DNA from: Candidatus Sulfotelmatobacter sp.
Lineage (GTDB): Bacteria; Acidobacteriota; Terriglobia; Terriglobales; Acidobacteriaceae
Reading direction: 5' to 3'
Assembly: GCA_030038255.1 (NCBI GenBank)
Contig: JASHPH010000249.1
Span: forward strand, 1 to 51,981
DNA: 51,981 nt
Positions 36,076 to 50,460 of this stretch are shown here, piece by piece (position 1 is the stretch's first letter; every line of letters starts with the position of its first letter). The notes under the pieces were generated by a model that saw only the letters and a program-made list of their open reading frames with translations, ran no database searches and was not told the origin of the DNA. Both the position numbers and the translations under genes were made by a program.

Positions 36076-37545
36076 ATGCCTCTAAAAACACTGTTCTTAA
36101 ACCCCCCTTCATTTGAAAACTTCGACGGAGGCGCGGGCTCCCGTTGGCCCGCCACCCGCGAAATCGAAAGCTACTGGTACCCGGTATGGCTGGCGTATCC
36201 GGCCGGAATGCTGGAGGGCTCGCGCCTGCTGGATGCGCCTCCGCATCACGTTTCCGGCGAAGAGACCATCCAGATCGCCAAGGACTACGAATTTCTCGTC
36301 CTGTTTACCTCGACGCCCGGCTTCCCCGGCGATATTCGCCTCGCCCGCGCCATCAAAGAGGCAAATCCGAAGATCAAAATTGCCTTCGTCGGTCCGCACG
36401 TGACCGTGCTGCCAGAGAAGTCTCTGCGCGACTGCCCAGCCATCGATTTCGTCTGCCGTAAAGAATTCGACTTCGCCGTCGTCGACTACGCCAAAGGCAA
36501 GCCGCTCGAGGAAATCCCGGGAGTTTCTTTCCTGAAGGATGGCAAGATCGTGCACAATCCCGATCAGCCGCAAATCCAGGATCTCGACGCGCTGCCCCAC
36601 GTCACCGACGTCTACAAGCGTGACCTCGACGTCACGCGCTACACCGTGCCCTTCCTGCTTCATCCCTTTGTCTCGCTCTACACCACGCGTGGCTGCCCGG
36701 CGCAATGCACCTTCTGCCTGTGGCCGCAGACGCTCAGCGGACATCCCTGGCGCAAGCGCTCTACCGACGACGTAGCCCGCGAGATGGCCCGCGCCAAGCA
36801 GTTGTGGCCCGACGTGAAAGAATTCTTCTTTGACGACGACACCTTCAACATCCAGAAAGCCCGCACTATCGAGCTCTGCGGAAAACTCAAGCCGCTCGGC
36901 CTGACCTGGTCGTGCACATCGCGCGTTACCACCGACTTCGAAACGCTGAATGCGATGAAAGACGCTGGATGCCGGCTGCTGATCGTCGGCTACGAGTCGG
37001 GCGACCCGCAGATTCTCAAGAACATTAAGAAAGGCGCTACGGTCGAGCGCGCCCTCCAGTTCACCAAGGATTGCAAGAAGCTCGGCCTCGTCGTTCACGG
37101 CGACTTCATTCTGGGGCTGCCGGGCGAGACGCATGAAACCATCAACCGCACGATCGCTTTCGCCAAGGAATTAGACGTCGAGACCATCCAGGTCTCGGTC
37201 GCCCATGCGTATCCTGGCACCGAGCTTTACGACTACGCGGTGAAGAACGGATTCATGGTCGCGGGCAACAAGATGGTCGACGAGGGCGGCCACCAGCTCG
37301 CGCACATTCAGTATCCGGGCCTTCCTGCGGACGAAATTCTGGCCGCCGTCCACCGCTTCTACGACGAATATTACTTCCGTCCCAAGGCCGTGTACCGCAT
37401 TTTGCGCAAAGCGGCCTTCGATGGCTACGAGCGCAAGCGCCTCTATCACGGGGCGAAGACATTCCTCAAGCTGCGCGCTGCCCGTAACAAAATGATCAAG
37501 GAACACAACCAGGCAGCTGCCGCGGCTCAGCCCGCAAAAGCCTGA
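36076..37545 (+). CDS. hpnJ: Hopanoid-biosynthesis-associated B12-binding radical SAM protein HpnJ
   Basis: LKTLFLNPPSFENFDGGAGSRWPATREIESYWYPVWLAYPAGMLEGSRLLDAPPH; radical SAM TTRGCPAQCTFCLWPQTLSG. Confidence 0.88.
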   Translation: MPLKTLFLNPPSFENFDGGAGSRWPATREIESYWYPVWLAYPAGMLEGSRLLDAPPHHVSGEETIQIAKDYEFLVLFTSTPGFPGDIRLARAIKEANPKIKIAFVGPHVTVLPEKSLRDCPAIDFVCRKEFDFAVVDYAKGKPLEEIPGVSFLKDGKIVHNPDQPQIQDLDALPHVTDVYKRDLDVTRYTVPFLLHPFVSLYTTRGCPAQCTFCLWPQTLSGHPWRKRSTDDVAREMARAKQLWPDVKEFFFDDDTFNIQKARTIELCGKLKPLGLTWSCTSRVTTDFETLNAMKDAGCRLLIVGYESGDPQILKNIKKGATVERALQFTKDCKKLGLVVHGDFILGLPGETHETINRTIAFAKELDVETIQVSVAHAYPGTELYDYAVKNGFMVAGNKMVDEGGHQLAHIQYPGLPADEILAAVHRFYDEYYFRPKAVYRILRKAAFDGYERKRLYHGAKTFLKLRAARNKMIKEHNQAAAAAQPAKA

Positions 37546-38362: not shown

Positions 38363-39082
38363 ATGCACAGAACGGCTTTGCTTTTGGCTGTCGCCCTGCT
38401 CGGTGTCAGCGCAGGACATTCCGCATCTCCTTCGCCGGACTGGGCCATCAACGCCACCGCCATCGAGGCATGCAGTTGTCCACACTTCTGCATCTGCTAC
38501 TTCAACCCGCATCCCGCGGGACACCACGAAAACGGCAAGGCAGAACACTTCTGCAAGTTCAACAACGCGTACAAGGTGAACAAGGGACATTACGGCTCCG
38601 TTGATCTGACCGGCGCCAAGTTCTGGATCAACGGCGACCTGGGCGGCGACTTCTCCCAGGGCCAGATGGATTGGGCTCAGGTGACGTTCGACAAGGCGAC
38701 CACCGCCGACCAGCGGCAGGCGCTCGGTGAAATCATCGGGCATGTATTTCCCGTGAAGTGGAAGTCGCTGCAGACCGCCGAAGGCGATATCGACACCTGG
38801 ACCTTCGACAAAGACCAGGCGCACGCCACGCTGAACGGCGGCAAGACTGCCGAGATCAAACTGAAACGCTTTCAGGGAATGACTGACGAGCCCGCGGTCC
38901 TGAAGAACGTCAAATACTGGGGCACGCCGCGTAACGACGGCTTCGTCATGATGCCCAACGAAATCGAGACCTACCGCGAGGGCCCCAAGCCGTATGAATT
39001 CAAGGGAACGAACGGGTTCATGCTCACGTTCGACATGACGTCGAAGGATGTGCCCGCGCCGAAAGGGACGTCGATGTACTGA
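38363..39082 (+). CDS. DUF1326-domain secreted protein
   Basis: WAINATAIEACSCPHFCICYFNPHPAGHH...FCKFNNAYKVNKGHYGSVDLTGAKFW; signal peptide. Confidence 0.82.
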   Translation: MHRTALLLAVALLGVSAGHSASPSPDWAINATAIEACSCPHFCICYFNPHPAGHHENGKAEHFCKFNNAYKVNKGHYGSVDLTGAKFWINGDLGGDFSQGQMDWAQVTFDKATTADQRQALGEIIGHVFPVKWKSLQTAEGDIDTWTFDKDQAHATLNGGKTAEIKLKRFQGMTDEPAVLKNVKYWGTPRNDGFVMMPNEIETYREGPKPYEFKGTNGFMLTFDMTSKDVPAPKGTSMY

Positions 39083-39163: not shown

Positions 39164-40582
39164 CTATGGGAACAATCGCATCAGCCCGGCCGGAGGTAAA
39201 TCTGGGGAGAGGAAGCGCACGTCCTTGCGGCCGGCAGCATGCGCCAGCGCCTCCGCCGCCAGATATCCGCTGCGCACGGCGCCCTCCATGGTTGCGGGCC
39301 ACTTCGTCGCTATCCAGTCTCCGGCAAGAAACACGCGCAGCCATGCCGTGACTGCTGACGGTCGATACATGTCGATCCCCGGACGCGGCGAGTAGGTGGC
39401 ATTCACCTCTTTGATCACAGTCGATTTCAGCAGATTCGCCCGACGGGCTGCCGGGAAAAATTCCCGCACTTCGCCGAGGGCGAGTTCGACAATCTCCGCC
39501 TTCGATTTCTCAATCAAGGTTTTCGACGAGCTGACGACGAGCTCGATATAGCTACCGGCGGCAGTTGCGTCGTTGGTACGCATGGGCTGCAGCCGCGACT
39601 TGTGGAACATCCACTGGATGGTTCGGTCGAGCAGCACGGCATGGTCGAAATCGGAAATCTGCCGGTCGAACCACAAATGAATGCCCGTGATGGGAGACGA
39701 TTCGAAATGAGCGAGCTGCTCGCGGATGGGAGCGCTTTCCGCCGCATCGGGCAATACGCGATCAAGTGCGTCGAACGGCAGCGCGACCACGAGATAATCG
39801 AACATTTCAACCTGACCGGCGACTCGTAACTGGACTCCTGCAGGGTCGGCCGCGAATCCCTCGATCGGACGCCGGAACTGCAACACGCCGCCGCGCGCGC
39901 GAATGTATTCGCCCGCTGCGTTGTAAAGGTCAGTGAGTGGAACCGTGGGCACGCCCATCCGGCCTGCCGCGGGAGACTTCAGGAACGACTCCCGGATCAC
40001 CTGCGCCGCGTAAGGCACAGCGATGCGGTCGAGATCCTCGTTCAGCGCGCTGACCAGGATTGTTTTCCAGAAGCGCTCGATCGCCGGCTCCGTCTGATGG
40101 TGACGGCGCAGCCAGGCAAGAAAATCCTCCTCAGAGCCTGCGTCGAGAGAGTTTGCCACCAGAATCATCATCGCCCAGGCAATGCTCAACTTGTCGCGCC
40201 ATCCCAGGCAGGCGGCACGCAGAAACGCCGGAGCAGTATGCAAGGGCGCCGGAAGAAACGAAGGCCCGATCGAGGACGCACGGCCGCCGGGCTCGAGAAA
40301 GGTCAGGGTGTCGTACCAGCGAATCTTGTCTTCGACGCCGGTGCGCCGGTAAAACTCAATCAGATTCGTGCAGCACCCCAGAAGCACGTGCTGGCAGTTG
40401 TCCACCACCTCGCCCGTTCCCGGATGCTCGTAGGATGACGCCCTGCCGCCAAGAAACGGCCGCTTCTCGAAGAGCGTGACGCGAAACCCCGCGTCGGCCA
40501 GGGCACAAGCCGCAGCCAGCCCGGCCAGACCGCCTCCGGCCACGGCGACCGTGGGTTGCAATGGGGATGAGGTTGGGGTCAT
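39164..40582 (-). CDS. hpnE: Hydroxysqualene dehydroxylase (squalene-associated FAD-dependent desaturase)
   Basis: VAVAGGGLAGLAAACALADAGFRVTLFEKRPFLGGRASSY; located directly after hpnC-hpnD. Confidence 0.9.
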   Translation of the reverse strand: MTPTSSPLQPTVAVAGGGLAGLAAACALADAGFRVTLFEKRPFLGGRASSYEHPGTGEVVDNCQHVLLGCCTNLIEFYRRTGVEDKIRWYDTLTFLEPGGRASSIGPSFLPAPLHTAPAFLRAACLGWRDKLSIAWAMMILVANSLDAGSEEDFLAWLRRHHQTEPAIERFWKTILVSALNEDLDRIAVPYAAQVIRESFLKSPAAGRMGVPTVPLTDLYNAAGEYIRARGGVLQFRRPIEGFAADPAGVQLRVAGQVEMFDYLVVALPFDALDRVLPDAAESAPIREQLAHFESSPITGIHLWFDRQISDFDHAVLLDRTIQWMFHKSRLQPMRTNDATAAGSYIELVVSSSKTLIEKSKAEIVELALGEVREFFPAARRANLLKSTVIKEVNATYSPRPGIDMYRPSAVTAWLRVFLAGDWIATKWPATMEGAVRSGYLAAEALAHAAGRKDVRFLSPDLPPAGLMRLFP

Positions 40583-40608
40583 CGAGCAGGATCTTCAGGT
40601 CATCTGCG

Positions 40609-41553
40609 TCAGGTGAGACGCATGACGAATCCCTTCCCCAGAATGCGCAGCTTTTCCCAGCGGCTCAACGCGATTTTGGCCGTGAAGACGTCGTATCGCT
40701 TCTCGGCAATTTTCTCGAGAAGGCGGCGGTAAATATTCAACAGCACCCAGAGCGCAGGCTGACTGTCTTCCGAAACATAGGGAATCAGCGCGTCTCCGGC
40801 GGCGTAGAACTCACGAGCTCGATCCGCCTCCAGGGCCAGCAGCGGCTGGAAGCGCGCGGGGTCCGGATTCGTCATGAGTTCTGAAGCGGTGAGGCCGAAG
40901 CGGGCGAGATCTTCTTCCGGCAGGTAGATCCTGCCCATGGCCGCGTCTTCCTTCACGTCGCGAAGAATGTTGGTCAGCTGGAAGGCGAGGCCGCAGCGCT
41001 CGGCCAGAATTTCCGCAGCCGGATCGCGATAGCCGAACACGTGGATGCAAACCAGCCCCACCACCGACGCCACGCGGTAGCAGTAGAGCTGCAGATCTTC
41101 AAAAGTCTTGTACTGCACCGTGAGGCCGGGAACCCCGGCGGTTTGCGCCGCAGGTTCGGTTTCTGCAACGTCCATCGCAGTACCATGGGCGAGTTCGTCG
41201 AGCAATCCGGCGGGAATCGCGTAACGCCGCTGCGCGTCGGTCAGAGCCAGCAGAATGGGATCGTCCGTGGGATGGCCCTGCTGCGCGCGGTGCAGGGCAT
41301 CAAGCCAGGTGTCGAGTTTCTGGCGCCGCGCGGGAAGGCTCAGCGTGGCGTCGTCGGTAATGTCGTCGCACGTGCGCATGAAAGCGTAAACAGCGCACAG
41401 CGCTTCGCGCTTGCGGTGCGGCAGAACGTGGAAGGCGTAATAAAAATTCTTGGCCGCCCGGCGTGTAATGCCCTTGCACACGGAGTACGCCATGACCAGT
41501 TGCGGCGGAGCCGGCGTCCAGGGGAGGGGAACCTGCTGTGCGCCGGCGCTCAT
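40609..41553 (-). CDS. hpnD: Presqualene diphosphate synthase
   Basis: AFMRTCDDITDD (DDxxD-like), LAFQLTNILRDVKEDAAMGRIYLPEEDLARFG. Confidence 0.92.
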   Translation of the reverse strand: MSAGAQQVPLPWTPAPPQLVMAYSVCKGITRRAAKNFYYAFHVLPHRKREALCAVYAFMRTCDDITDDATLSLPARRQKLDTWLDALHRAQQGHPTDDPILLALTDAQRRYAIPAGLLDELAHGTAMDVAETEPAAQTAGVPGLTVQYKTFEDLQLYCYRVASVVGLVCIHVFGYRDPAAEILAERCGLAFQLTNILRDVKEDAAMGRIYLPEEDLARFGLTASELMTNPDPARFQPLLALEADRAREFYAAGDALIPYVSEDSQPALWVLLNIYRRLLEKIAEKRYDVFTAKIALSRWEKLRILGKGFVMRLT

Positions 41554-42578
41554 TGCTTATTAACCCCGCTCTGCTGAGCCGCGCTGTGGTGAGTGCCACT
41601 TGCTCCTGCGACAGCCGATCCATTCCCGGTGCCACTCGAGAAAAGCTTGCCCAGCGCGGCGCGCGCCACAAGCGCGAGCTTGCGCGGCTTCGAAATGACA
41701 GGACGATTTCCCAGCACCGCATAGCCTTGCCGCTCAATCGCGCGCAGAATTTCTAATCCGCCGCGGCTGAACAGTTCGATATCGATGGCCAGCTCGCGGT
41801 CGACCCTTCCCACCAGCGGCAGGCCTTTGCGAAACCATTCGCGCGCGCGGTCGACTTCGAACTGCATCATGGCGCGGAAAGCCGACGTGTTCCGGCTGCA
41901 CAGGATGTCGTCTTCGCTCACATTGAACGCCCGCAGGTCCTCGATCGGCAGGTAGAGGCGGCCCTTGGCGTAGTCGCGCGTCACGTCTTGCCAAAAATTC
42001 GCCAGTTGCAGCGCCGTGCAGGTGTAATCGGAAAGCTGTTGCCGCTCGCTGTCCCGGTATCCGCAGAGATAGAGCACAAGATGCCCGACCGGATTCGCCG
42101 AGTAGCGGCAATAGGCGAGCACGTCCTCGAAAGTCTCAAAACGCGTGACGGTCTGGTCCTGGCGGAAAGCGATCAATAAATCCGAGAATTCGTGCTTGGG
42201 AATGTCGAACTGCCGCACCGTCTCAGCCAACGCTACAAACACTGGGTGCTTGGGCGCGCCATCATAGCAGGCGTCCAGTTCAGCCTGCCACTGATCTAAG
42301 AGTGCAAGCGAGGCGGCCTTGTCGCCGACTTCGTCGCCGAGATCGTCAGAAATGCGGCAATAGGCGTAGACGTTGCAGAAATGCTGTCGCAAGCGCTTCG
42401 GCAGAAACCACGTCGCAACCGAGAAATTTTCATAATGCGTGCGGGCGAGACGGGCACAGTATTCGCGGGCCTCTTCAAGCGCAGGCGCGGTCGCGGGAAT
42501 CCCGTACTCGGCAGGCAGACAGCTCCAGCCGCTGGCAGCGGCGGAAACGGCCGAATTCTGCGTGGCGAGTGGTGGCAT
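41550..42578 (-). CDS. hpnC: Squalene synthase HpnC
   Basis: HYENFSVATWFLPKRLRQHFCNVYAYCRISDDLGDE; ALQLANFWQDVTRDYAKGRLYLPIEDL; 4-bp overlap with hpnD. Confidence 0.92.
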   Translation of the reverse strand: MPPLATQNSAVSAAASGWSCLPAEYGIPATAPALEEAREYCARLARTHYENFSVATWFLPKRLRQHFCNVYAYCRISDDLGDEVGDKAASLALLDQWQAELDACYDGAPKHPVFVALAETVRQFDIPKHEFSDLLIAFRQDQTVTRFETFEDVLAYCRYSANPVGHLVLYLCGYRDSERQQLSDYTCTALQLANFWQDVTRDYAKGRLYLPIEDLRAFNVSEDDILCSRNTSAFRAMMQFEVDRAREWFRKGLPLVGRVDRELAIDIELFSRGGLEILRAIERQGYAVLGNRPVISKPRKLALVARAALGKLFSSGTGNGSAVAGASGTHHSAAQQSGVNKQ

Positions 42579-42581
42579 CCA

Positions 42582-43667
42582 TTAGTGTCCGGGAATGATC
42601 GCCGTCTTGATATCCCCTCCGCGGTTCAGCATGTGCCGCAGAACCTGTTGCAGGCGCGAAAGGGGCGCTTCGCCGGTGATGTAATCGGTAGGGCGAATCT
42701 TTTTCGCGGCGATCAGTCCGAAAGCTCGGCGCACAGTTTCCGGGGTGTGGTGGAAGGTGGCCTTTAGCGTGATTTCGGAATAGTGCAAGCGATTGGTATC
42801 GAGTTGTACCTTGGTTCCGCTGGCGCAGCCGCCAAAGAAATTGACTGTGCCTCCCTTGCGGACCATGTCCACGCCCCACTCCCAGGCCTCCGGCTTGCCC
42901 ACGGCTTCGATGACCACGTCGCAGCCGCGCTTTTGCGGCGTCAGCGCGCGCACGGCTTCGACTACGTCGGGCGTCTTTGTGGTTTGCACGATCTCGTGCG
43001 CGCCCATGTGTTTGGCCGCCGAGACCTGCTCGTCGCGCTTGACCACCGAAATGACATTGCACCCGATCGCCCTCGCCACCTGCACAAACATCAGCCCGAT
43101 CGGCCCTCCGCCCAGAATCGCCACCGTGTCGCCGATCTCGACCCCGGTTTCGTGCAGGCCGCGCAGCACGCAGGCGAGGGGTTCGGTCATCGCAGCTTCC
43201 TCGAAGCTGATATTCGGCGGAATGACCAGCATGTTCGCTTCAACAATGCGCCGAGGCACGCGAATGTACTCGGCATAGGCGCCGTTATTGAACAGCAGAT
43301 CTTCGCAGAGATTTTCCTGATGCTTGGAGCAGTAGAAACACATCTGGCAAGGGGCAGAGTTGAGGGCGACGACCCGCATGCCCTTCTTGAAACCGTTAAC
43401 GTTGGAGCCGACTTCCTCGATGACCCCTGCCAGTTCGTGGCCAAACAGCGCCGGAGGCACGATCATGCGGGCATGATAGCCGCGTTGGTAGACCTTCAGG
43501 TCCGTGCCGCAAGTCAGCGCCACCTGGACCTTGACCAGAACTTCGCCCTCACCCACGCGAGGGATCGGCACCTTTTCGATCTTGAGGTCTTCTTTGCCGT
43601 ACAGGACGGCAGCGGTCATTTTGCCATTCACTTCCGGTTCCCTCGCCCCCTCTACTTTCCCGCCCAA
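42582..43667 (-). CDS. Zinc-dependent medium-chain dehydrogenase
   Basis: CGTDLKVYQRGYH; FGHELAGVIEEVG; structural-Zn CQMCFYCSKHQENLC; Rossmann AILGGGPIGLM. Confidence 0.88.
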   Translation of the reverse strand: MGGKVEGAREPEVNGKMTAAVLYGKEDLKIEKVPIPRVGEGEVLVKVQVALTCGTDLKVYQRGYHARMIVPPALFGHELAGVIEEVGSNVNGFKKGMRVVALNSAPCQMCFYCSKHQENLCEDLLFNNGAYAEYIRVPRRIVEANMLVIPPNISFEEAAMTEPLACVLRGLHETGVEIGDTVAILGGGPIGLMFVQVARAIGCNVISVVKRDEQVSAAKHMGAHEIVQTTKTPDVVEAVRALTPQKRGCDVVIEAVGKPEAWEWGVDMVRKGGTVNFFGGCASGTKVQLDTNRLHYSEITLKATFHHTPETVRRAFGLIAAKKIRPTDYITGEAPLSRLQQVLRHMLNRGGDIKTAIIPGH

Positions 43668-44770
43668 ACACTGCCGGGTTGGATCATGACCTTCATCGAC
43701 GATGGCAGCGGATGAGCCGCCAAGTGCAGCGCCGCGATGCTCTCAGCCAGCGGAAAACGATGGCTGACCAATCGCTCCAGGTCCATCTCACGGTTCATCA
43801 CAAAGCGCACTGACTCCTCCTGCAAGTCCACCGAGGCGCTGTAAGACCCAACCAACGTCTTCTCGTCCACACAAATGGCTGCCGGGTCAATCACGGCTTC
43901 GCCGTGCTGGGTCTGCCCAAAAAGCAATACCCCTCCCCCCGGACGGGCTGCATCCATCGCGGTGCGAATCAGGGAATTGCCGCCGACAGCCAGAATCACC
44001 GCGTCGGCGCCACGCCCCTCGGTCAGTTCGCGGACCCGCTCCACCACGTTGGCCCGCGAAGCATCAATTGTAAGCGCTAGCCCGAAACTTGACCCTATTC
44101 TAAGCCGTTCGGCATGTAAATCGGAAGTAATTATGCTGGCCCCTGCCCGCCGGGCCAGTACGCTCAGTAAGATGCCGATGGGCCCCTGCCCGATAGTCAG
44201 CACTGTCTCGCCTTTTTGCAAGCGCAAAGCCTCGATCCCCTTCATGCAGGTGTTGACCGGCTCTACGGACGAAGCCTGCTCGAACGAAACGCCATCCGGG
44301 ATGCGAACCGTGCCGTGCTCCACGATCCAGTCCATTACGCGAACATACTCGGCGAATCCTCCGCCCGAGGGCTCAAATCCCGCAGTACAGCCGACTTTCT
44401 TGTAGGTCGCGCACTGGGCAAAGGTCTTGTTCCGGCAATAAAAGCACTCGCGGCAGGGAATGTGATGGAACACTACCACCCGGTCGCCAGGCCGCCAGGC
44501 TCGAACCTTTTCGCCAACCGCCGCAACCACCCCCGACGTTTCGTGGCCGAAGATGCGCGGGGCAGAGTGCGAGCCGGTCGAGATTTTCTTCAGATCGGTG
44601 CCGCAGACGCCGCAGGAATGCACCCGGACAAGTATCTCTCCCGGCGCGATTGTGGGGACGGGCACAGTTTCCAGTCGGACATCATCCACGCCGCGATAGA
44701 CCGCGGCCAGCATGGTTGCAGGAATGGATTGTGGGACAGCTTCGACCGCGTACGGTCCGGCAGTAGCCAT
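43652..44770 (-). CDS. Zinc-dependent medium-chain dehydrogenase (second, divergent paralogue)
   Basis: CGVCGTDLKKISTG; FGHETSGVVAAVGEKVRAWRPGDRVVVFHHIPCRECFYCRNKTFAQC; TIGQGPIGILL. Confidence 0.88.
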   Translation of the reverse strand: MATAGPYAVEAVPQSIPATMLAAVYRGVDDVRLETVPVPTIAPGEILVRVHSCGVCGTDLKKISTGSHSAPRIFGHETSGVVAAVGEKVRAWRPGDRVVVFHHIPCRECFYCRNKTFAQCATYKKVGCTAGFEPSGGGFAEYVRVMDWIVEHGTVRIPDGVSFEQASSVEPVNTCMKGIEALRLQKGETVLTIGQGPIGILLSVLARRAGASIITSDLHAERLRIGSSFGLALTIDASRANVVERVRELTEGRGADAVILAVGGNSLIRTAMDAARPGGGVLLFGQTQHGEAVIDPAAICVDEKTLVGSYSASVDLQEESVRFVMNREMDLERLVSHRFPLAESIAALHLAAHPLPSSMKVMIQPGSVWAGK

Positions 44771-44901
44771 GAAGTCAGTTTAGATGCGACTTTCGCTCAA
44801 TTCGCTTCTATTGCCTTGGATCGGGGCTATTGTAAAGCAGGGATCAGTCGGTGGGGGCCTTAATTGACTACCGGCCCTTCCACTCATAGCATGTTTCGCA
44901 C

Positions 44902-47553
44902 ATGATCGGCCGCGTCATCTCGCACTACCGCGTCATCGAGAAATTGGGTGGCGGCGGTATGGGCGTCGTCTACAAAGCGGAAGACACCGAACTGGGACGC
45001 TTCGTCGCGCTCAAATTCCTCCCTGCCGAAGTCGCCAACGATCCCCATGCTCTCGAACGCTTCCGCCGCGAGGCGCGAGCCGCCTCGGCGTTGAACCATC
45101 CCAACATCTGCACCATCTACGAAATCGGCAAGCACGAAGACGAATCGTTCATCGTGATGGAGTTCCTCGATGGGATGACGCTCAAACACCGCATTGCGGG
45201 GCGTCCCATGGAAATCGAGCCGTTGCTCGAGCAGGCGATCGAAATCGCCGACGCGCTGGACGCGGCCCACAATGGCGGCATCGTGCACCGCGACATCAAA
45301 CCCGCCAACATCTTCATCACGCGGCGCGGCCACCCCAAGATCCTCGATTTCGGTCTGGCGAAGCTGACACCGGGCGCCGCCGCGTCCGGCGCCCAGCCCA
45401 CACGGACCATCAGCGCCGAACAACTGACCAGCCCCGGCAGCGCCATGGGCACCGTGGCCTACATGTCGCCTGAGCAGGCGCTGGGCAAGGAGCTCGACGC
45501 CCGCACCGATCTTTTCTCCTTCGGCGCGGTGCTCTACGAGATGGCGAGCGGCGCCCTGCCGTTTCAGGGAGAGACGACTGCGGCCGTCTTTGACTCGATC
45601 CTGCACAAGCCCGCCACGTCGCTGGTCCGCGTAAATCCGCAAGCTCCGCCGGAACTGGACCGCATCGTCAACAAAGCGCTCGAAAAAGATCTCGATCTGC
45701 GCTACCAGAGCGCCGCCGAAATGCGCGCCGACCTCAAGCGCCTGAAGCGCGAAACCGACTCCGGCCGCTCGGCGGCTGCCGTTGCCGCGCCAGCGGCTGA
45801 CCGAAAAATTCGGCTCGCATACATGGCAGCGGCGGCGCTGCTCGTGCTGATCGTCGTCGCAGTAGCATTTTTCGCCTCGCGAGGCCCTTTGCCGCCGCCG
45901 CGCGTGATTTCGACCACGCAGCTCACCAGCGATAACCTGCCCAAAGATCTCGTCGTGACTGACGGCCCTCGCGTCTACTTCACCGAAACCGTCAACGAAC
46001 GGGTTCTGTTAAGCCAGGTCTCAGCCGGCGGCGGCGACATCAGCCACATCCCGACGCCCTTCGCCAACAGCTATATCAGCGATGTCTCTCCCGCCCGCTC
46101 CGAGCTTCTGGTCAATTCCTACAACGGGGAGGAAACGTTCCTCAGCTCTTACGATTCGCCGGTGTGGATCGTCCCGGTTCCCGCCGGATCACCACGCCGG
46201 CTCGGCGACATTCTGGCTACGGTTGCGGTTTGGTCGCGCGACGGGCAACGGCTGGCATTTGCGCGTGGTACCGACATCTACCTTGCCCAGTCGGACGGCA
46301 CGCAACCGCATAAGCTGGTCACGACGACCGGGAACTGCTTCTACATGCAGTTCTCGCCCGACGGAAAGCGATTGCGCTTCAGCGCGCGCGATGCCGATAG
46401 CTCCGATTCCCGTCTGTGGGAGGTTGCCCTCGACGGGACCGGCTTGCGCCAGGTGCTTCCGGAGAGTTTTCATCAGGACCCGGGTGAGTGTTGCGGCCGA
46501 TGGAACGCCGACGGCTCCTACTACTTCTTCAGCATCGCTCGCAACGGCCGCTACGATATTTGGGCGCTGCGCGAGAGTACAAGCCTGCTCCATCGCGCCA
46601 GCCCGGAGCCCCAGCCGGTTACTGCGGGTCCGTTATCGTACTTCAGTCCGGCCCCGGCCCTTGCCGGAAATCGCCTGTTCGTGATCGGCGAACAGCGGCG
46701 GGCGCAGTTGCAGCGTTTCGATGCCAAGGCGCAGCAGTTCGTTCCCTTCCTTGACGGCATCTCGGGCGGAGAAATTGAATTCTCCAGGGATGGGAAGTGG
46801 GTCACCTACGTGAGCTACCCCGACTCGCTACTATGGCGCAGCCGCGGTGACGGCAGCGACAAACTCCGCCTGACCTCCGCCCCGACAACTGTCTCTATGC
46901 CGCGCTGGTCTCCGGACGCAGCGCAGGTTGTTTACCTCTGCGGCCTTCCAACAAAACCTCCCAAGGTGTGCATCGTGTCCCGCGACGGGGGCGCAACCCG
47001 CGAGATCCCGCCACCAGATCCTCGCTGGCTCGACGATCCCCAATGGTCACCAGACGGCAAATCGCTCCTCGTTGCCTTGTACCCTCTGGGAATCGTCGGC
47101 AAACCGCAGGATTACTCCCTGACTCAATACGACTTGCAAACCGGGAAATTCACCCCGCTCGCGGGCAGCGAAGGGACGCTGGGTCCGCGCTGGTCTCCCG
47201 ATGGACGCTACATCGCTGCCTTCTCTGCCGACACAAAGAAGGTGATGCTGCTCGAAGTGACCGCAGGAAAATGGTCTGAGCTGGCGACGGCAACTGCCCT
47301 GCAATATCCCAACTGGTCGTCGGACAGCAGGTACGTTTATTTCGAAGACCTGGGGCCGGACGGCCCGGAGATCGACCGCGTTTCCGTCGCCACGCACAAG
47401 AAGGAGGGTGTTGTCTTGCTCAAGGGGATTTCGCGAGTGGCCATGCCGGAATCGTCCGTTCCCTGGAACGGCGTCGCTCCCGACGGCTCGCCCCTTATCA
47501 TGCGCGACGTGGGCAGCCGCGAGCTCTATTCGCTCGAATTGCAGTTGCCCTAG
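44902..47553 (+). CDS. Transmembrane Ser/Thr protein kinase with extracytoplasmic PD40/TolB-like beta-propeller
   Basis: Kinase motifs ([44 protein letters not shown]), TM segment [21 protein letters not shown], repeated WSPDG/SPDGK blades. Confidence 0.93.
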
Positions 47554-47588
47554 AAACTAGAATTGAAAGTCGAGGCTCGGAGGGCTTG

Positions 47589-48590
47589 GTGACTAAGCGA
47601 AGGTTGTTCCGGGTGGTGATCAGCCTGCTGTTGTATTTCGCTAGTTTCTCATCGGTGTGCCAGCAAAACCCGTCAACGAAAGATGAATCCGCCAAAACGG
47701 GGCCGAGCAGCCAGCCCGGGATTGATTACGTCCAGGAGGCAGCCGGAAGTTCGGTTTTTATCTATGCTGGCGACTCAAAACCGTGCGAGGACCCGCCGCA
47801 AGGTCAGCAACCCCTCACCCCCGCTGGAAGTGGGTTCTTCGTCGGACTGAGGGACGCATCTGTGCCCGTCACGCCGGGCAAGGTAGTGGCCTGGAGATTT
47901 CTGGTGACGGCCGGCCATGTATTGAAAGAGAGGAACTCCATCGTGATTCGACTGAATCGCGCATCACCGGCGTCAGGCTTTGTGTGCTTTCCAATCAGTC
48001 TCGTTCGTGACGGTCAATCCAAGACTGTGTACACATTGAAGGACGAGGATGCGGCGGACGTTGTGGCTGTGGACATCCCGATGCTGCCTGAAACGGATCC
48101 AGTGACTTTTTCTGCTTCGATGCTGATGGACCCGGAAGCAATGAAAAAGAATGAGGTCAAAGTTGGGACGAACGTGTTCACCGTAGGTTATTTCTTGGGC
48201 TACGCTGGCCAGAAGCAAAATTATCCCATTACTAAGTTTGGAAAGATATCAATTCTCACGCCTGAGCGGTGGTATTTCAACCCAGACTGGCGGCGGAACG
48301 AGGAAGCGTACGTAGTAGAAATGCAGAATACGCCTGGACTCAGCGGGGCACCCGTGATCACCTATGGCGTTGAGTTTCATGTTTCTCCATTCCAATATCG
48401 GGAATTAGGTCCAAATGTGGTTGGCCTTGTGAAAGGTTTAACTCTTGCACCTCTTCCGATCGGGCAAGGGAATGCGGTTCTGATCCCGCAAGGCGCTGCG
48501 GCAGTGGAACCCGCTGCGCACATCAAAAAGCTCTTTCAGTCGATTGCGACAGAGTATCGAAAGCGAGGGGCGCAAGTAGCTGAGGACTGA
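47589..48590 (+). CDS. Secreted trypsin-like serine peptidase-like protein
   Basis: Signal peptide; WRFLVTAGHVLKERNSIVIRL (His region), DAADVVAVDIPML, TPGLSGAPVITYG (Ser region GLSGAP); GTG start. Confidence 0.7.
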   Translation: MTKRRLFRVVISLLLYFASFSSVCQQNPSTKDESAKTGPSSQPGIDYVQEAAGSSVFIYAGDSKPCEDPPQGQQPLTPAGSGFFVGLRDASVPVTPGKVVAWRFLVTAGHVLKERNSIVIRLNRASPASGFVCFPISLVRDGQSKTVYTLKDEDAADVVAVDIPMLPETDPVTFSASMLMDPEAMKKNEVKVGTNVFTVGYFLGYAGQKQNYPITKFGKISILTPERWYFNPDWRRNEEAYVVEMQNTPGLSGAPVITYGVEFHVSPFQYRELGPNVVGLVKGLTLAPLPIGQGNAVLIPQGAAAVEPAAHIKKLFQSIATEYRKRGAQVAED

Positions 48591-48726
48591 GGGTGCTAGG
48601 CGCCAATTCTCGGCTTCTTGGGGGACAGTTCAACTCACTCGCGACCGATCCCTGATCCCTAACTCTCTAGCCCCGGCCTTTCATGCTATGCTGCGCAAAA
48701 CTATACTCTCAGGATGACGATGACCT

Positions 48727-50460
48727 GTGCTCACTGAGTTGCGCCTCGAAAACTACGCGGTAATCGACAACCTCGCGGTCGAGTTCGGGCCGGGGTTGAA
48801 TCTGCTGACGGGAGAAACCGGGGCGGGGAAGTCGATCCTGATTGACGCGCTCGCGCTGCTGTTGGGCGAAAAGGCGTCGAGCGACGTGATTCGCGGCGGG
48901 GCGGAGCGGGCGGTCGTGTCGGCAGTGTTCGAAGCCGAAGGCGCCGCGGAAAAGCCGCTGACGAAGATTCTCGAAGCGAACGGCTTGGGTAAAACAGCTG
49001 ACGACGAATCCGACGACGGCTCTCTCATCCTGCGGCGTGAAGTTTCCACCGGCGGCCGCGGACGCGTGTTTGTGAACAATCAGCCCGCGACGGTCGCCGT
49101 TCTGCGGCGGCTCGCGCCGCATCTGGCGACCATCCATGCGCAGAACGAATCCATTCTTTCCTTTGACGGCCCCGCGCGCTTGGCCCTGCTCGACGCCTTC
49201 GCTGGCAGCAGCCTGGATGCTGTCGAATCGGCGTTTGCTGCTTGGAAAGACATCCGCACGCGCATCGACGAATTGCAGCAAGGCGAACAGGACCGCCTGC
49301 GACTGGTGGATCTGTGGTCCTTCCAGCAGCGTGAGATTCAAGAAGCGCGCCTGCAGGAAGGCGAAGACGAAAAGCTGGAAGCGGAGAAGCGGGTTCTCGC
49401 CAACGCCGAGAAAATCTACAACGCCGCCATGAACGCCTTCGACCTGTTGTACGAAGGCAACGGTTCAACTGCGTCGTCGCTCCGCGCAGCGCACAAGCAG
49501 GTTGAAGAGCTGGCCCGCTACGAGCCCAAATTTCAGGAAGCTCTGGCCGCCCTCGAAACCGCGCGCATCAGTGTGGAGGATGTCGGTGCGACCGTCCGCG
49601 ATTATGCCGGAGGCATCCACGCCTCACCCGAGCATCTGGCCGAAGTCGAGGACCGCCTCGCGTTGCTCGACCGCCTGAAGCGCAAGTACGGGCCATCGCT
49701 CGCAGAAGTGATTCAGTTCGGCGCGGAGGTCTCGCGCAAACTTTCTGAGGTCGAGAACAAGGACGAAATTCTCCGCCAGCTCCAGGGCGAACTGGCCAAA
49801 GCCGCGACCGAATACCTGCAAGCCGCCCGCGCGCTGTCGAAAAAGCGCGCCGCGGCGGCGCGCCGGCTGGAGAAGTTGGTCGAGGCCGAGATCAACGACC
49901 TGGCCATGAAATCAACCTTCCGCATCGAGATCACCACGTCGGAAGAAGAAGGGAACTGGAACCCGGCGGGAATCGACGAAGTCGTCTACATGATTTCAAC
50001 TAATCCTGGCGAGCCGCTGCGGCAGCTGGAGCATATCGCTTCAGGCGGCGAGCTCTCGCGGGTCATGCTGGCGCTGAAGGCGAGTGTGGAAGCAGGAAAA
50101 ACCCCCACTTCTGGCAAAACCGGCCAGAAGTGGGGCACCCACACCGTTCAACGCACTCTTGTCTTCGACGAAATCGACACCGGCATCGGAGGGCGGGCTG
50201 CCGAATCCGTGGGCAAAAAGTTGAAGTCGCTGGCGCGTTCCAACCAGGTGTTGTGCGTCACGCACCTGCCGCAGATCGCCACCTTCGGCGACCGCCACTA
50301 CGTCCTCGAGAAGAAAGAGTCCGGCGGACGCACCCGCACCACCATTCGCTTTGTCACCGGCGACGAGCGCACCGAAGAAGTCGCCCGCATGCTGAGCGGG
50401 GCGAAGCTCACCGAAACTTCGCGCAAACACGCCGAGCAAATGATCAAAGCCAACGCGTAA
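48727..50460 (+). CDS. recN: DNA repair protein RecN
   Basis: LTELRLENYAVIDNLAVEFGPGLNLLTGETGAGKSILIDALALLLG; IASGGELSRVMLALK; LVFDEIDTGIGGRAAESVG; GTG start. Confidence 0.95.
   Translation: MLTELRLENYAVIDNLAVEFGPGLNLLTGETGAGKSILIDALALLLGEKASSDVIRGGAERAVVSAVFEAEGAAEKPLTKILEANGLGKTADDESDDGSLILRREVSTGGRGRVFVNNQPATVAVLRRLAPHLATIHAQNESILSFDGPARLALLDAFAGSSLDAVESAFAAWKDIRTRIDELQQGEQDRLRLVDLWSFQQREIQEARLQEGEDEKLEAEKRVLANAEKIYNAAMNAFDLLYEGNGSTASSLRAAHKQVEELARYEPKFQEALAALETARISVEDVGATVRDYAGGIHASPEHLAEVEDRLALLDRLKRKYGPSLAEVIQFGAEVSRKLSEVENKDEILRQLQGELAKAATEYLQAARALSKKRAAAARRLEKLVEAEINDLAMKSTFRIEITTSEEEGNWNPAGIDEVVYMISTNPGEPLRQLEHIASGGELSRVMLALKASVEAGKTPTSGKTGQKWGTHTVQRTLVFDEIDTGIGGRAAESVGKKLKSLARSNQVLCVTHLPQIATFGDRHYVLEKKESGGRTRTTIRFVTGDERTEEVARMLSGAKLTETSRKHAEQMIKANA
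50103..50135. repeat. Perfect palindromic element inside recN
   Basis: CCCCACTTCTGGC-aaaaccg-GCCAGAAGTGGGG: 13-bp perfect arms, 7-nt loop, in-frame. Confidence 0.9.

Follow-up and report, generated by a model that had tools for sequence, protein, structure and literature searches.

In Acidobacteria, genes for bacteriohopanepolyols (BHPs) have been described in clusters that include cluster A, ug2-hpnC-hpnD-hpnE, and cluster C, hpnA-hpnG-ug1 (Sinninghe Damste et al. 2017, PMC5462960). In that account ug2, which lies before hpnC and adjoins it, is a Zn-binding alcohol dehydrogenase of ~350 aa, and ug1 adjoins hpnG; in the parts of the paper drawn on here, the nature of ug1 is not stated, and no function, coenzyme type, or pairing is proposed for either gene. 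HpnC, HpnD, and HpnE together suffice for squalene formation in Escherichia coli (Pan et al. 2015, via PMC5462960). The enzyme that converts ribosylhopane to bacteriohopanetetrol (BHT) was still unassigned in 2025 (PMC12583986).

Here, we analyzed a 51,981-nucleotide stretch of a Candidatus Sulfotelmatobacter sp. draft genome (contig JASHPH010000249.1 of GCA_030038255.1), referred to in full as the window, in which two Zn-dependent medium-chain dehydrogenase/reductase (MDR) genes, MDR1 and MDR2, run directly into hpnC, hpnD, and hpnE. By position, we infer that MDR2 is ug2 and MDR1 is ug1. The window shares the ug2-hpnC-hpnD-hpnE order of cluster A, and its genome departs from cluster C in that MDR1 lies apart from hpnG. 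Linkage of a dehydrogenase to hpnC is therefore partly known already. New here are the observations that the two genes follow hpnG, hpnH, and shc more closely than they follow hpnC or hpnJ; that MDR1 almost always comes right after hpnG and the pair conserves opposite coenzyme-site residues; and that the same pair, with the same residues, occurs in hopanoid gene clusters of Rokubacteria. The reading that we favor, with a confidence just short of even, is that MDR1 and MDR2 would be hopanoid side-chain enzymes, one of them the ribosylhopane reductase.

Conserved synteny and co-occurrence of the pair

Relatives' loci were grouped by BLAST and annotated with hidden Markov models (HMMs). Their common order, found whole or in pieces, is recN-ispH-shc-hpnH-ug3-hpnA-hpnG-MDR1-MDR2-hpnC-hpnD-hpnE, and the window segment is the rear half of this acidobacterial BHP cluster. 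An earlier, sequence-only reading of the window had missed both the larger ispH-shc-hpnH-hpnA-hpnG-MDR1-MDR2-hpnCDE cluster and the partial precedent of 2017, but the check that it proposed, conservation of the neighborhood, came out in its favor: the pair is syntenic with hpn genes in relatives. Because the identical order recurs in dozens of genomes, the arrangement is not due to chance. The gene preceding shc scores as ispH in the loci examined. By family search, MDR1 directly follows hpnG in 67 of the 70 genomes that have both. It does not do so in the window's genome, in G010, where the two are on different contigs, or in the sister species G054, where 756 bp separate them. MDR1 and MDR2 are adjacent in 59 of 75 genomes, and MDR2 stands directly before hpnC in 67 of 78. 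In genus g4, whose cluster is divided, MDR1 remains beside hpnG and MDR2 beside hpnC; both remain with hpnG in family f4, with hpnC elsewhere; and in family f7, which lacks MDR1, MDR2 directly follows hpnG. The gene hpnJ is usually not adjacent to the pair.

Gene presence was then counted over 121 genomes of the class (MDR1 in 75, MDR2 in 80, HpnG in 80 by family search or 83 with three from a local HMM, HpnH in 88, Shc in 90, HpnC in 93, and HpnJ in 90). For both dehydrogenases, the phi coefficient is highest with hpnG (0.75 for MDR1 and 0.83 for MDR2) and falls via hpnH and shc to hpnC (0.62 and 0.68) and hpnJ (0.59 and 0.62), the lowest of the genes tested. None of the nine genomes with hpnC and without shc has either MDR1 or MDR2. 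This ranking and these nine genomes tie the two genes to hopanoid formation, most closely to the side chain, and not to squalene as such. Of the three substrates floated in the sequence-only reading, the hopanoid side chain fits best, with MDR1 beside hpnG and both genes tracking hpnG and hpnH; a cyclitol head group is a poorer fit, and isoprenoid alcohols are a bad one. In genome G009, hpnA, hpnG, MDR1, MDR2, and hpnC were not found. The case for a functional co-loss is weak, as relatives have these genes side by side and, in G009, ispH-shc-hpnH-ug3 runs into open reading frames (ORFs) that, by ORF reading, resemble transposases, where the contig stops (L043:8813-10585).

Two dehydrogenase subfamilies with opposite predicted coenzymes

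Both proteins exceed the Pfam gathering scores for PF08240 (ADH_N) and PF00107 (ADH_zinc_N). The four structural-Zn cysteines that had been pointed out earlier are kept in each (C106, C109, C112, and C120 in MDR1; C107, C110, C113, and C121 in MDR2), as are the catalytic residues C56, H76, and E77 in MDR1 and C53, H77, and E78 in MDR2, all at least 97% conserved. Coenzyme use is predictable from the Rossmann-fold residues that close the second strand. An acidic residue stands at this point in all 66 MDR1 sequences, whereas 55 of 56 MDR2 sequences have a non-acidic residue there, mostly followed by Lys or Arg; the predicted coenzymes are opposite, MDR1 being NAD-type and MDR2 NADP-type. One of the MDR2 sequences carries DKE as its coenzyme-site residues.

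The two proteins are only 32% identical, in line with the strong divergence noted before, and group in different clades, each of which also takes in the corresponding Rokubacteria protein; origin of the pair by recent tandem duplication is not supported, and MDR1 and MDR2 appear to be two old, distinct MDR subfamilies. The named equivalogs threonine 3-dehydrogenase, scyllo-inosose 3-dehydrogenase, and galactitol-1-phosphate 5-dehydrogenase were rejected because NCBIfam scores are far below cutoffs: the top match of MDR1 is scyllo-inosose 3-dehydrogenase IolM (157 of 450 bits) and that of MDR2 is tdh (168.5 of 458 bits). Structure models (mean predicted local distance difference test scores of 91.0 and 85.1) are nearest to polyol, ketose, butanediol, and threonine dehydrogenases, matches that are generic for MDR proteins and do not narrow the substrate range.

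The pair beyond the class and phylum

Other families of the phylum also carry MDR1 orthologs, at ~50% identity. The order is ispH-hpnA-MDR1-MDR2-hpnD in f37, with shc-hpnH-hpnA-MDR1-MDR2-hpnC-hpnD-hpnE in one genome, and shc-hpnH-hpnA-hpnG-MDR1-MDR2-hpnCDE in f59; in f48 (L084, L085), the MDR1-MDR2 tandem lies beside a proline dehydrogenase gene, with a QueF-like gene in L085. MDR1-like proteins of f15, f60, and f74 (34 to 38% identity), with no hpn genes within the fetched stretches, were set aside.

A scan with HpnH gave 80 named loci from several phyla, with flanks of at most 10 kb and with titles of draft genomes that may be wrong. Among loci that their titles place outside Acidobacteriota, the two from Rokubacteria had the full pair, within hpnH-ug3-hpnG-hpnA-hpnD-MDR1-MDR2-ispH; MDR1 and MDR2 from these loci each join their own clade with high support and retain the coenzyme residues. 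Locus L126, titled Rhodanobacteraceae, has MDR1 within a cluster of the acidobacterial type, and its label is probably wrong. The few hpnH genes sampled from Proteobacteria had no MDR1 or MDR2 ortholog nearby. The small gene ug3 (~146 aa; L023:5999-6439), without a Pfam or NCBIfam match, stands behind hpnH in L132, L134, L163, L165, and L170. It does so across many phyla, Burkholderiales and Nitrospira among them, and is a candidate HpnH partner.

The locus in the window and its genome

The ORFs of the window bear out a tight set of five co-directional, nearly contiguous genes from 44770 to 39164 on the minus strand. The features are as follows:

43652-44770, minus strand: MDR1 ("ug1" by position), 372 aa, PF08240 and PF00107 above cutoff, conserved D217, predicted NAD-type
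42582-43667, minus strand: MDR2 ("ug2" by position), 361 aa from a TTG start, PF08240 and PF00107 above cutoff, predicted NADP-type with V209-K210-R211
41550-42578, minus strand: hpnC, squalene synthesis, TIGR03464 at 350 bits (cutoff, 250)
40609-41553, minus strand: hpnD, presqualene diphosphate synthase, TIGR03465 at 252 bits (just below the cutoff of 279, still the best family)
39164-40582, minus strand: hpnE, hydroxysqualene dehydroxylase, TIGR03467 at 472 bits (cutoff, 283)
38363-39082, plus strand: a DUF1326 gene, between hpnE and hpnJ
36076-37545, plus strand: hpnJ, cyclitol-ether radical SAM protein, TIGR03471 at 781 bits (cutoff, 578)

The hpnC, hpnD, and hpnE identities given earlier are upheld by these scores, and the genes are likely expressed as a single MDR1-MDR2-hpnC-hpnD-hpnE transcript. 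From MDR1 to hpnE, the junctions are a 16-bp overlap (15 bp in the sequence-only reading, which had the other three right), a 3-bp gap, a 4-bp overlap, and a 26-bp gap. The first overlap depends on the TTG start of MDR2. Because the conserved N terminus begins at Met17 (ATG 43619; at least 97% of 35 orthologs), this ATG is probably the MDR2 start, which would leave a gap of ~32 bp after MDR1. The gene hpnJ does lie ~1.6 kb past hpnE, as had been stated, but we rejected it as an operon member: it is on the opposite strand and convergent, with the DUF1326 gene intervening. The same convergent hpnE/hpnJ layout occurs in L023, L025, L048, and L115. In f6 loci L030 and L034, hpnC and hpnD form one long frame (~650 to 870 aa), like the hpnCD fusion reported for subdivision 2 (SD2) Acidobacteria.

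The window's genome has an unusual arrangement. Relatives keep recN, ispH to hpnG, and MDR1 contiguous; here, ispH-shc-hpnA-hpnG is on contig C398 (L041 6423-12706), hpnH is on C151, and MDR1-MDR2-hpnCDE is on C401, so that the hpnA-hpnG-ug1 contiguity fails. Downstream of hpnG on C398 are ExbB/TolQ- and TonB-type-looking ORFs (by ORF reading), not MDR1. In relatives recN adjoins ispH; in the window it lies near MDR1 in the opposite orientation, with genes for a Ser/Thr kinase and a trypsin-like protein in between (44770-50460). The cluster of this genome looks rearranged, or the draft may be misassembled.

Candidate roles of the two dehydrogenases

In the pathway that we favor, HpnH joins a deoxyadenosyl group to hopene to give adenosylhopane, HpnG strips adenine from it to leave ribosylhopane, and MDR1 and MDR2 would then act on the C35 side chain. 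A Zn polyol-type dehydrogenase encoded beside hpnG is a good candidate for the ribosylhopane reductase. At least one of the two, more probably the NADP-type MDR2, would reduce ribosylhopane, in its open aldehyde form, to BHT. MDR2 is preferred since an NADPH-type site is expected of a biosynthetic reductase and MDR2 is kept in f7 without MDR1; the closer link to hpnG is that of MDR1. The NAD-type MDR1 may be a second polyol-type oxidoreductase for the same side chain, for example in an oxidation, a stereo-inversion, or the making of another functional group. Gene content, synteny, co-occurrence, and the conserved Zn and coenzyme residues are observed directly; substrate, direction, and division of labor are inferred. 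Somewhat more tentatively, MDR2, with or without MDR1, could be the missing ribosylhopane reductase in both Acidobacteriota and Rokubacteria; the NAD/NADP pair may form an undescribed side-chain redox module.

Several points weigh against this assignment. Two dehydrogenases for one reduction need explaining. MDR2 is present in 77 of the 83 class genomes with hpnG, and some hpnG-bearing genomes and BHT makers are without it: in the draft genomes G053 and G077, hpnG and hpnA are present and neither MDR1 nor MDR2 was found, and Chloracidobacterium is described as making BHT without ug2 (PMC5462960), so that the reductase would not be universal. No hpn genes lie within the fetched stretch around the f48 tandem. 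The co-occurrence statistics ignore ancestry, and several of the genes are physically linked.

A related possibility, unlikely in our judgment yet deserving serious weight, is that the pair makes some other change to the side chain, such as inverting a side-chain carbinol by way of a keto intermediate (MDR1 oxidizing with NAD and MDR2 reducing with NADPH, perhaps together with HpnA) or adding a further functional group, and that the ribosylhopane reductase is encoded by an unlinked gene. Linked dehydrogenases of opposite predicted coenzymes suit an oxidation/reduction pair; hpnA, a sugar-epimerase-like short-chain dehydrogenase/reductase gene, is a constant neighbor, including in f37, which lacks an adjacent hpnG; and the pair is absent in other BHT makers. 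However, f7 retains MDR2 without MDR1, and acidobacterial BHPs are described as mostly plain tetrafunctionalized compounds, a special product being undocumented in the parts of that source drawn on here (PMC5462960). We consider it improbable that, as the sequence-only reading had offered, the pair supplies or modifies a cyclitol or sugar head group with HpnI, HpnK, and HpnJ, which form BHT cyclitol ether, although hpnJ is near hpnE in the window and several family members and MDR1 has IolM as its top match, if far below cutoff. This fit is weaker: of the genes tested, hpnJ co-occurs least with the pair and seldom adjoins it, 15 hpnJ-bearing genomes lack MDR2, MDR1 stays with hpnG and not hpnJ when the cluster splits, and the three-step HpnI-HpnK-HpnJ route requires no dehydrogenase (PMC12583986). 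Absence of HpnK, reported in 2017 for hpnK in SD1 and SD3 Acidobacteria (PMC5462960), fails as a ground for dismissing the cyclitol route, since the window's genome encodes an HpnK-like protein at 210 bits (cutoff, 232.6; G000:C184:10608-11471) and many relatives score similarly just below the cutoff. The HpnK-like gene is beside hpnJ in G019, G055, G061, G053, and G077.

An early role on isoprenoid alcohols or squalene intermediates, alongside HpnC, HpnD, and HpnE, is very improbable. It would accord with the frequent adjacency of MDR2 to hpnC, but the nine hpnC-bearing genomes without shc have neither dehydrogenase, the pair sits with hpnG in f4 while hpnC is elsewhere, and HpnCDE alone yield squalene in E. 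coli. We also give little credence to general-purpose dehydrogenases hitchhiking in the cluster with no hopanoid role, which would suit the f48 tandem away from hpn genes; both genes are usually single-copy and co-occur strongly with shc (Fisher test, 1e-15 and 4e-18, values that ignore ancestry), and their adjacency survives cluster splits and recurs in hopanoid clusters of another phylum.

Significance and relation to known systems

BHPs are widely used as sediment lipid biomarkers. In many Acidobacteriota, MDR1 and MDR2 are conserved parts of the cluster that builds the sugar-derived tail of these sterol-like hopanoids. As two conserved, linked, usually single-copy dehydrogenases, they offer a concrete candidate pair for BHT formation and could mark side-chain capacity in metagenomes.

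Among characterized enzymes, MDR1 and MDR2 resemble the NADP(H)-dependent ketose reductase/sorbitol dehydrogenase (1e3j, 1pl6) and related MDR polyol dehydrogenases in fold, Zn ligands, and polyol-type motifs; they differ in that identity is only 25 to 28% and both fall outside any named NCBIfam family. Reduction of ribosylhopane to BHT has been seen in a cell extract of Methylobacterium organophilum (Bodlenner et al. 2015, via PMC12583986), an activity whose gene is not identified in the parts of that source drawn on here and which is the same reaction as the one proposed for MDR2 or MDR1.

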